From: Altererythrobacter aquiaggeris
Lineage (GTDB): Bacteria; Pseudomonadota; Alphaproteobacteria; Sphingomonadales; Sphingomonadaceae
Direction: 5' to 3'
DNA: 64,000 bases
NCBI RefSeq assembly: GCF_037154015.1
Contig: NZ_JBANRL010000001.1
Span: 868,001 to 932,000 of the forward strand
Shown piece after piece: positions 51,636-54,152 of this stretch (the first letter of the stretch is position 1; each line of letters begins with the position of its first letter). Under the pieces are notes generated by a model. It was given only the letters and a program-made list of their open reading frames with translations. It did no database searches and was not told where the DNA came from. Made by a program: the position numbers and the translations under genes.

Positions 51636-52214
51636 ATGGCTATCCGCGAAATTCTCGAAGTTCCCGATCCACGGCTCAAAACCGTTTCCGCACCCGTCGA
51701 TACGTTCGACGGCGAGCTCAGGACGCTCGTCGATGACATGTTTGAAACGATGTATGATGCACCCGGCATCGGCCTCGCCGCCATTCAGGTCGGTGTACCG
51801 CAACGTGTGCTGGTTATCGATTTGCAGGAACCTGACACGGATGCGGAGCCGGAGGAATGCGGCCATGATCACGGAGACGGGGAAGGTTCGCACAAACATT
51901 ATCCGGTGAAAAACGACCCGCGGGTTTTCATCAATCCCGAAATTCTTGACCCGGCGGAAGAGCTGGCGACATACCAGGAAGGCTGCCTGTCAGTCCCCGA
52001 AATCTATGCCGATGTTGACCGCCCGGCAAGGTGCCGCGTCCGCTATCAGGATCTGGACGGCAAGGTTCACGAGGAAGATCTGGATGGTCTGATGGCAACC
52101 TGCATCCAGCACGAAATGGATCACCTCGAAGGTGTCTTGTTCATCGACCATTTGAGCCGTCTGAAGAAACAGATGGCGCTCAAAAAGCTCGACAAGCTGC
52201 GCAAGGCAGCCTGA
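51636..52214 (+). CDS. def: Peptide deformylase with an acidic/His-rich insert
   Basis: 192 residues. It removes formyl from nascent peptides. The three motifs are intact: GIGLAAIQ (44-51), EGCLS with Cys117 and HExxH at 159-163 (QHEMDH). Between the first two motifs, about residues 66-92 (acidic, with GHDHGDGEG and SHKHY) exceed the usual loop, and could bind metal; that is inference. It follows recR by 47 bp. Confidence 0.95.
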
Positions 52215-52233: not shown

Positions 52234-52635
52234 CTAGCCTTCGTTTTCCATCAATTCGAGCGCCTTGCGGCAATCATCGGCACACTCGCGGCACATTTTG
52301 GCGCAGCGTCTGCAATGCGGATTGTCATGTTTGCCGCATTCCTGCTCGCACGTTTCACACGCTTCGATACAGGCTGCCAGCATCGTTTTGATAACCGCGA
52401 CATTGCCGCCGGTCCGGCGTGTTGCCACGCGGTAAGTGGCGGTGCAGATGTCGCTGCAATCGCTGCAGGTGCGGATACATTGCGACATATCCCCGTCTTC
52501 GCCGCTGCACGCATCGGCGCAGCTATTGCAGATCGCCGCGCAATACATCGCATATTTCACTGCTTGCGAAAGTTGCTCGTCATAGCCTTCCTTACTGACA
52601 TGGGGGTGCTCGGAAATCATTTTCTTGATAGACAT
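52234..52635 (-). CDS. Copper-storage-type Cys-rich four-helix protein
   Basis: 133 residues. 17 cysteines, spaced as CxxxCxxCxxxC along helices (32/36/39/43, 53/57/60/64, 89/93/96/100, then 108-122), as in Csp (DUF326) proteins whose bundled Cys bind many Cu(I) ions. No signal peptide, so a cytosolic Csp3-like form is likely. ATG 52635 with AAGGA upstream is chosen. It is divergent from rmuC over a 110-bp gap that holds inverted repeats and LexA-like boxes. Confidence 0.9.
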   Translation of the reverse strand: MSIKKMISEHPHVSKEGYDEQLSQAVKYAMYCAAICNSCADACSGEDGDMSQCIRTCSDCSDICTATYRVATRRTGGNVAVIKTMLAACIEACETCEQECGKHDNPHCRRCAKMCRECADDCRKALELMENEG

Positions 52636-52696
52636 CGGGGTTCCTTTCGCCTGATTACCAAATAAGCGATCGAGAGCGGGGGATTGTTCCGGAATG

Positions 52697-52733
52697 GTCG
52701 GAAACAGGGCTTCCCCGCGCCCCCTGTTCCGAC
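52697..52733. promoter_or_regulatory. Long inverted repeat between csp-like and rmuC genes
   Basis: GTCGGAAACAGGG (52697-52709) pairs with CCCTGTTCCGAC (52722-52733), one base bulged, around a C-rich 12-bp loop. It overlaps the LexA-like box, and could be a site for a second regulator or a leader hairpin. Confidence 0.5.
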
Positions 52734-52740
52734 TATGTTC
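52726..52740 (+). promoter_or_regulatory. LexA (SOS) box of rmuC
   Basis: GTTC-CGACTAT-GTTC fits the alphaproteobacterial LexA consensus GTTC-N7-GTTC exactly. It ends 5 bp before the rmuC ATG (52746). A degenerate second copy, GTTC-N7-GTCG, lies at 52686-52700. SOS control of a recombination gene is the expected meaning; binding is inferred. Confidence 0.7.
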
Positions 52741-52745
52741 CAAAA

Positions 52746-54152
52746 ATGGAATTGACTGGAATACTCGTCGCATTGGGGGCTCTGATCTTAGGGGCGGCCG
52801 CTGGCTATTTCTTCGGCACCCGCCCTCTCGCTGATCTGAAGGCGCGGCATGGGGAGCGCGACTCCGAAGCGCGCAAGCTTGCCGAAGTTGTCGCGCGAAT
52901 GGCCCCCGAATTGGCCACGATGAGCGAGCGTGCTGCGCGGGCCGATAGCCTGGCGGAAAATCTCGACCGGACGCGCGAAGAACTGACCACACTCAAGACT
53001 CAGGCCGCTGGTTTCGAGGAGCAGAAGCGGGCGCTGATTGAAACGCGCGAGCAATTGTTGAAGGAATTCCAGAACACCGGCGCGGCTGTATTGGGCAAGG
53101 CGCAGGAAGCATTTCTGGCGCGGGCGAGCGAGAAATTCGGCGACAGCGAAAAGACCAATAAAGCCGCGGTTGCTGCGCTGCTCGAACCCGTCAACCAGCG
53201 GCTCAAGAGCTATGAAGACCAGGTGACAAGCCTTGAAAAGCAACGGGTTGATTCGTTCGGCCAGCTGACCGGTCTGATCGAGAATATGCGGCTGGGACAG
53301 GAGGAAGTCCGCCGCGAAGCGCAGCGGCTTGGGAATTCGCTCACGAACGCTCCCAAGGCCCGTGGGCGGTGGGGAGAACGGGCACTGCAAAATGTTCTGG
53401 AGCAATGCGGGCTGTCGCAGCACACGGACTTCAATCTTGAACAATCCATCGACACCGAAGATGGCCGGCTGCGGCCTGATGCCATCGTCAATGTGCCCGG
53501 ACAGAAGAAACTGATTATCGACGCGAAAGTATCGCTCAACGCGTATCAGGAAGCGTTTGAAGCTGACGACGATGATGTGCGAAAACTGGCACTTGCGGCC
53601 CATGCAAAATCGATGCGCAACCATGTCCAGCAACTCGGCGCCAAAAGTTACCAGAGCCAGTTTGAAGAAGCGCCCGACTACGTCGTGATGTTTGTTCCGG
53701 GCGAACATTTCGTATCGGCTGCGCTGGAGTCTGATCCGGAACTGTGGGATTTCGCATTCCAGAACGGCGTGTTGTTGGCCAGTCCGACAAATCTGGTGGC
53801 GATTGCCCGCACAATCGCGCAGGTTTGGCGGCAGGACCAACTGGCCGATGAAGCCCGCGAAATCGGCCGGGCCGGGGCTGAACTGTACAGCCGGCTCGAA
53901 ACCGCTTCGCAGCATCTGAAACGGGTTGGTTCGGGCCTTGAAACCGCGGTGGGCAATTATAACAAGTTTGTCGGCAGTTTCGAACGCAATGTCCTGTCAT
54001 CGGGCAGGCGCCTGGCTGACAAGGGGATCGAGATCGGCAAGCGCGAAATTGAAGACGTTCCGCTGGTCGAAAGCACCCCGCGCTACACTGCAAAAGACGC
54101 GGAAGACACGCCTCAGCTCGAAGACGGCTCCAGCATAGCCAAAGCTTCGTAA
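52746..54152 (+). CDS. rmuC: DNA recombination protein RmuC
   Basis: 468 residues. An N-terminal membrane anchor (about 5-25) precedes a long coiled coil (about 35-180) and a PD-(D/E)xK-type nuclease core: RGRWGERALQNVLEQCGL, RPDAIVNVPGQKKLIIDAKVSL. RmuC limits inversions at short repeats in E. coli. A LexA box stands directly before the ATG, so DNA damage may induce it. Its end overlaps the convergent methyltransferase by 40 bp. Confidence 0.95.
   Translation: MELTGILVALGALILGAAAGYFFGTRPLADLKARHGERDSEARKLAEVVARMAPELATMSERAARADSLAENLDRTREELTTLKTQAAGFEEQKRALIETREQLLKEFQNTGAAVLGKAQEAFLARASEKFGDSEKTNKAAVAALLEPVNQRLKSYEDQVTSLEKQRVDSFGQLTGLIENMRLGQEEVRREAQRLGNSLTNAPKARGRWGERALQNVLEQCGLSQHTDFNLEQSIDTEDGRLRPDAIVNVPGQKKLIIDAKVSLNAYQEAFEADDDDVRKLALAAHAKSMRNHVQQLGAKSYQSQFEEAPDYVVMFVPGEHFVSAALESDPELWDFAFQNGVLLASPTNLVAIARTIAQVWRQDQLADEAREIGRAGAELYSRLETASQHLKRVGSGLETAVGNYNKFVGSFERNVLSSGRRLADKGIEIGKREIEDVPLVESTPRYTAKDAEDTPQLEDGSSIAKAS

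Follow-up and report, generated by a model that had tools for sequence, protein, structure and literature searches.

The window, by which we mean the whole analysed stretch of 64,000 nucleotides from Altererythrobacter aquiaggeris, carries the rmuC gene on its forward strand at 52746–54152. Its 468-amino-acid product, read from an ATG at 52746, passes the Pfam cut-off for the RmuC family (PF02646, E 7.8e-94, 314.5 bits against a cut-off of 26), and this open reading frame is the only one in the whole genome with a Pfam RmuC match. On the same strand, def, encoding peptide deformylase (PF01327), occupies 51636–52214 and is the upstream neighbour of rmuC in most relatives that have no csp3. The latter, a divergent cysteine-rich gene on the reverse strand (52234–52635), encodes a protein of 133 amino acids with a DUF326 match of 58 bits, and a phmmer comparison aligned query residues 1–128 with the solved structure of Csp3 (PDB 5arm_A, E 9.8e-25), identifying the product as a Csp3-like cytosolic copper storage protein. 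Some genomes have csp3 with its predicted EcfG-like promoter (52234–52690 in the window) between def and rmuC, whereas others lack it at that place.

The first-pass annotation had reported a LexA-type GTTC-N7-GTTC sequence directly before rmuC, and this holds: the forward strand reads GTTCCGACTATGTTC at 52726–52740, an exact match whose end lies 5 bp before the ATG, so that the predicted LexA operator spans positions −20 to −6 of rmuC. Motif counts were uninformative taken alone and were set aside as evidence, both in the window (3 exact sites against 1.64 expected, a number reached by 25 of 100 shuffles) and in the 2.64-Mb genome (74 sites against 55 for a reversed-letter control). The rmuC box is therefore not beyond chance by count, but it is far beyond chance by position and conservation.

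Conservation of the operator sequence

A search of named genomes yielded 553 relatives of rmuC, the best 80 of which were analysed. At a distance of up to 350 bp from the aligned start, an exact box on the same strand as rmuC was present in 76 of these best 80 loci and absent in the other 4, and an exact box on the opposite strand was found in none of the 80. The reversed-letter control returned 1 of 80 on each strand, and altered spacings were similarly rare (N6, 1 of 80; N8, 3 of 80). Within the N7 spacer, the fifth letter was T in 75 of the 76 boxes and the seventh was C or T in all 76.

A second set of loci came from a protein search of 59 genomes, including the genome of the window; rmuC was found in 52 of them and the upstream region was inspected in 46. 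Some loci are shared between the two sets (L013 and L130, for instance, sit at almost identical positions of equally long contigs), and their counts are kept separate. Loci L010–L039 of the second set carried an exact same-strand box in 25 of 30 cases, or 24 of 29 when the locus of the window itself is left out, and one of the five loci without an exact box (L016) had a box with a single mismatch. Among rmuC homologues at 33–42% identity, 6 of 7 had the box, one of them on the opposite strand. More distant RmuC homologues from other families of the order (23–27% identity) had no exact box in any of 9 loci, and one of these had a one-mismatch site. In the wider class the box was sporadic, occurring in 4 of 29 inspected loci, for which 30 of the 111 matched genomes were covered; one of the positive loci belongs to the same family and one has the box on the opposite strand, and outside the family the box stood in 3 of 28 inspected loci. 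Class-wide conservation of the rmuC box was accordingly rejected as weak.

Two individual loci deserve mention. In another genome of the genus to which the window belongs (G001, locus L014), rmuC has no box and its ATG is preceded by the Shine–Dalgarno (SD)-like word GGAGGGG; from its sequence, this looks like an apparent loss of SOS control of rmuC within the genus. In addition, a record titled Nostoc sp. CHAB 5836 (L164) contains a boxed rmuC locus that nests among Porphyrobacter and Erythrobacter on the tree, and probably reflects contamination of a cyanobacterial assembly with alphaproteobacterial DNA.

LexA boxes elsewhere in the genome

The genome encodes both LexA (173.5 bits) and RecA (574.5 bits). 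With gene starts taken from an ad hoc caller, lexA carries an exact box of its own 64 bp upstream and recA has one 70 bp upstream, and uvrA, uvrD and a dinB-like gene have exact boxes 9–12 bp from their called starts. Further boxes lie near mmcB-like, ribonucleotide reductase, cytosine methylase and radical-SAM-like genes; the genes beside the boxes were named from Pfam, with the radical-SAM, HTH_31 and TrbC matches falling below the Pfam cut-offs. Taken together with the recurrence of the box in 76 of the 80 relatives, the boxed lexA and recA strongly support the claim of the first-pass annotation that LexA governs rmuC, and on this sequence evidence rmuC is very probably under SOS control and switched on by DNA damage.

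A letter rule derived from the rmuC boxes of the relatives (T at position 8, a pyrimidine at positions 10 and 15) holds at 15 of the 74 genomic sites. It was rejected as a general LexA rule, as the boxes of recA, uvrA, uvrD and lexA do not follow it.

Two exact boxes occur within a single stretch of the chromosome (G000:C1:1753200-1753454, L086), between HTH-like and TrbC/VirB2-like genes whose matches are both under the Pfam cut-offs, and more boxes stand at 1772537 (L087), before an S24 peptidase gene, and at 1822875 (L089), before a lytic transglycosylase gene. These sites perhaps mark a conjugative element with a link to the SOS response.

Geometry of the predicted rmuC promoter

We classed the 80 named loci by the distance from the end of the box to the rmuC start, as 5–6 bp (class A, 20 loci), 15–17 bp (class B, 46), 18–37 bp (class C, 10) or no box (class N, 4). 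These labels depend on starts chosen by a script from alignment and codon, and one locus (L195), scored at 15 bp by the script, was reassigned manually to class A on account of an in-frame ATG 6 bp after its box. The window, with its distance of 5 bp, is of class A.

Alignment on the start codon pointed to a core promoter at a fixed place. A TAnnnT sequence at −12 to −7 was present in 46 of the 67 class A and B loci, the window included, and in none of the 14 loci of classes C and N. In the window it corresponds to a predicted −10 element, TATGTT, at 52734–52739 of the forward strand, inside the operator. A weak predicted −35 element, CTTCCC (52710–52715, forward strand), falls in a conserved block at −36 to −31: among the loci profiled, C occupied −36 in 14 of 19 class A and 40 of 42 class B loci, and −35 was T in 17 and 41 of these, respectively. 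The class A box thus overlaps a conserved TAnnnT at which a sigma-70 consensus scan, covering 52600–52800, finds no promoter, so the core promoter of rmuC is predicted from conservation.

At the usual spacing, a −10 element at −12 to −7 places the transcript start on the ATG. An SD-like word at −18 to −4 was seen in none of the 21 loci of class A (window included), 7 of 46 in class B, 7 of 10 in class C and 2 of 4 in class N, over a background of about 10%; the csp3 genes, used as a control, had such words in 26 of 27 entries. The position of TAnnnT and the scarcity of SD-like words make classes A and B look leaderless and suggest that most of class C has an ordinary mRNA with a leader. The start codon of rmuC in the window accordingly looks, from its sequence context, to be the predicted transcription start as well. 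The layout is not a general trait of SOS genes here, an idea that we discarded: among 12 SOS-type genes inspected in this genome, an SD-like word precedes 7, and TAnnnT at −12 is confined to the dinB-like gene.

Two operator registers and their neighbours

Relative to this fixed promoter, the class A box lies at −20 to −6, over the −10 element, and the class B box at −31 to −17, in the spacer between −35 and −10. The two registers differ by one direct-repeat period, 11 bp, and have the half-site at −20 to −17 in common. Register goes with gene neighbourhood: a divergent csp3-like gene is present in 19 of 20 class A loci and 1 of 46 class B loci, and in 44 of the 46 class B loci def lies 56–438 bp upstream with no csp3. 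Locus L194 lacks csp3 and yet has a class A box, which shows that the register can exist in the absence of the gene.

On the RmuC tree, the A/B register needs 10 changes, as counted on a quick-search tree in which 22 of 81 branches are open. Even the genus of the window holds class A (the window), class B (G002) and a locus without a box (G001). Comparison of independent pairs on supported branches gave 7 pairs, of which 6.4 on average linked register and csp3 in the same way and 0 in the opposite way (median p 0.03, range 0.016–0.063).

A direct-repeat operator, unlike a palindromic one, could slide along the DNA if one of its half-sites were passed on from the old site to the new. Relics of a third GTTC with at least three of four letters, which might mark sliding intermediates, were found on the left in 2 of 76 loci and on the right in 3 of 76, no excess over a background of 5.4% per place, and were rejected as such; with relics at the background level, sliding by half-site hand-over is no more than a possibility, and the link between register and csp3 is explained at least as well if the intergenic piece that contains csp3 was exchanged. 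The broader picture, in which a leaderless rmuC promoter is fixed to the ATG while the LexA operator sits in either of two registers separated by 11 bp, switching repeatedly with gain and loss of csp3, is tentative, and we would sooner doubt it than rely on it.

The upstream GTTC probably belongs to the csp3 side

The first-pass annotation had also described a degenerate second LexA copy upstream, which corresponds to the GTTC at 52686, and had suggested that the box may repress the divergent cysteine-rich gene. Neither proposal was supported. Eleven base pairs on from this GTTC the sequence is GTCG, which has two of the four letters of a LexA half-site, and in 18 of the 19 named class A loci that have this GTTC no partner half with at least three letters was found on either side. 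The exception, L145, has a partner half with three letters; the twentieth class A locus, L194, has no GTTC in that stretch. We therefore rejected a second LexA copy at 52686.

The same GTTC is part of GTTCC, which on the csp3 strand reads GGAAC (52686–52690, reverse strand) and is conserved before csp3. Among 27 csp3 entries, which include one (L024) without a csp3 match, GGAAC occurs 47–63 bp before the ATG in 26, and in 23 CGCT or CGTC follows it after N16 or N17, a spacing picked after the sequences had been viewed. CGCT serves as the putative −10 in 21 of the 26 promoters with GGAAC, and in the window it stands at 52665–52668 of the reverse strand, 17 bp from GGAAC. Several csp3 loci also have CGTT 13 bp from GGAAC. 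The genome contains nepR, with GGAAC-N16-CGTT 175 bp before its match; speaking against an EcfG-type promoter, exact GGAAC-N16/17-CGTT sites in the genome as a whole were not enriched (39 sites against 74 in the reversed control). With GGAAC conserved and a LexA partner half lacking, 52686–52690 reads better as the putative −35 element of a separate, EcfG-like stress promoter of csp3. The LexA box stands 35 bp past GGAAC in the window, and most class A relatives have about 25 bp between the two; at such distances simple occlusion is unlikely, and the geometry does not support repression of csp3 by the box.

Proposed mechanism and alternatives

These observations allow us to propose how the locus would work. 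In an undamaged cell, LexA bound at 52726–52740 would cover the TATGTT element and block rmuC, whose mRNA would be leaderless, starting at or beside the ATG. Upon DNA damage, RecA-stimulated cleavage of LexA would free the promoter and RmuC would be made. The GTTC at 52686 would, going by its conservation, be part of the stress promoter of the divergent csp3. Binding and repression by LexA, transcription from a leaderless start and induction of rmuC are inferred from sequence comparison, by which we hold it highly likely that the box is a genuine operator of the SOS regulon lying over a leaderless rmuC promoter and that the upstream GTTC belongs to the promoter of csp3.

Three other explanations were weighed. 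GTTC-N7-GTTC is short and a copy might stand before rmuC without function, as the modest number of exact sites in the window (3 against 1.64 expected) would allow, and of the 74 genomic sites only 35 precede a called start by 300 bp or less, some of these falling within another called gene. Chance would nevertheless have to account for a box before rmuC in 76 of 80 relatives that always points the same way and favours two distances from the start, where the control gives 1 of 80 per strand, and we find this scarcely credible. A different regulator that reads the same direct repeat, such as a phage repressor of the S24 type, might occupy the box instead, and the genome does encode further S24-domain proteins (L087 and L091), one of them with a box 63 bp upstream; the host lexA and recA bear the same kind of box, however, and the rmuC box extends across many genera as expected of a chromosomal regulon, so this explanation is very unlikely.

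Somewhat less remote, though still improbable, is a double LexA operator at 52686–52740 that co-represses rmuC and csp3. The partial GTCG match and the three-letter partner half of L145 speak for it, and against it are the lack of a partner half with three letters in the 18 other named class A loci that share the GTTC and the conservation of GGAAC with its downstream element on the csp3 strand. A single LexA operator for rmuC beside an independent csp3 promoter is the reading that we retain, and it sets right how the neighbouring stress promoter had been read.

Comparison with known systems

Control by LexA is known for rmuC (yigN) in the gamma-proteobacteria E. coli, Vibrio and Salmonella, and is what we propose here. 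The gamma-proteobacterial operator is a gamma-type LexA box, unlike the alpha-type direct repeat of the present locus, and, as a further difference, rmuC mRNA here appears leaderless. Titles and abstracts in the open literature yielded nothing on this promoter (rmuC in Caulobacter, LexA in Sphingomonadales, or leaderless transcripts with LexA in alphaproteobacteria), and nothing linking rmuC with Sphingomonad* was found in the open literature. The main text of two alphaproteobacterial LexA papers does not mention rmuC (PMC12700426, PMC1839093), nor does the main text of two papers on sphingomonad EcfG promoters mention DUF326, four-helix or cysteine-rich proteins (PMC7083833, PMC6599016).

As a comparison for csp3, the EcfG promoters reported in sphingomonads are GGAAC-N16-CGTT in Sphingopyxis granuli (PMC7083833) and GGAAC-N17-20-GTT in Sphingomonas melonis (PMC6599016). 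The predicted csp3 promoter shares with them the GGAAC −35 and a flexible −10, which in csp3 is mostly CGCT as opposed to CGTT.

For rmuC, the text of PMC3323433 counts the gene among the canonical SOS genes in both E. coli and Vibrionaceae. In Vibrio cholerae it is a known SOS gene with a ratio of 19.7 with mitomycin C, and its gamma-proteobacterial neighbours are tatABC (PMC5963079), in contrast to def or csp3 here; Salmonella rmuC rises 19.46-fold with nalidixic acid and carries a single box, 44 bp upstream of its ATG (PMC8072944). In alphaproteobacteria, GTTCN7GTTC is known as the LexA box (PMC3323433, PMC12700426), and the rmuC box fits this consensus as given for Caulobacter crescentus, in which about 97% of SOS promoters are single-boxed (PMC12700426). 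What was already known is thus the membership of rmuC in the gamma-proteobacterial SOS regulon; what is new, and in our judgement well supported, is its place in an alpha-type LexA regulon with an unusual promoter layout. As far as the open literature goes, where we found nothing in print, rmuC joins the probable SOS regulon of Erythrobacteraceae and close kin. An operator in two registers within a fixed, apparently leaderless promoter would offer a natural series relating repression and the timing of induction to the position of LexA, and the same repair gene would be under LexA in two proteobacterial classes through different operators.
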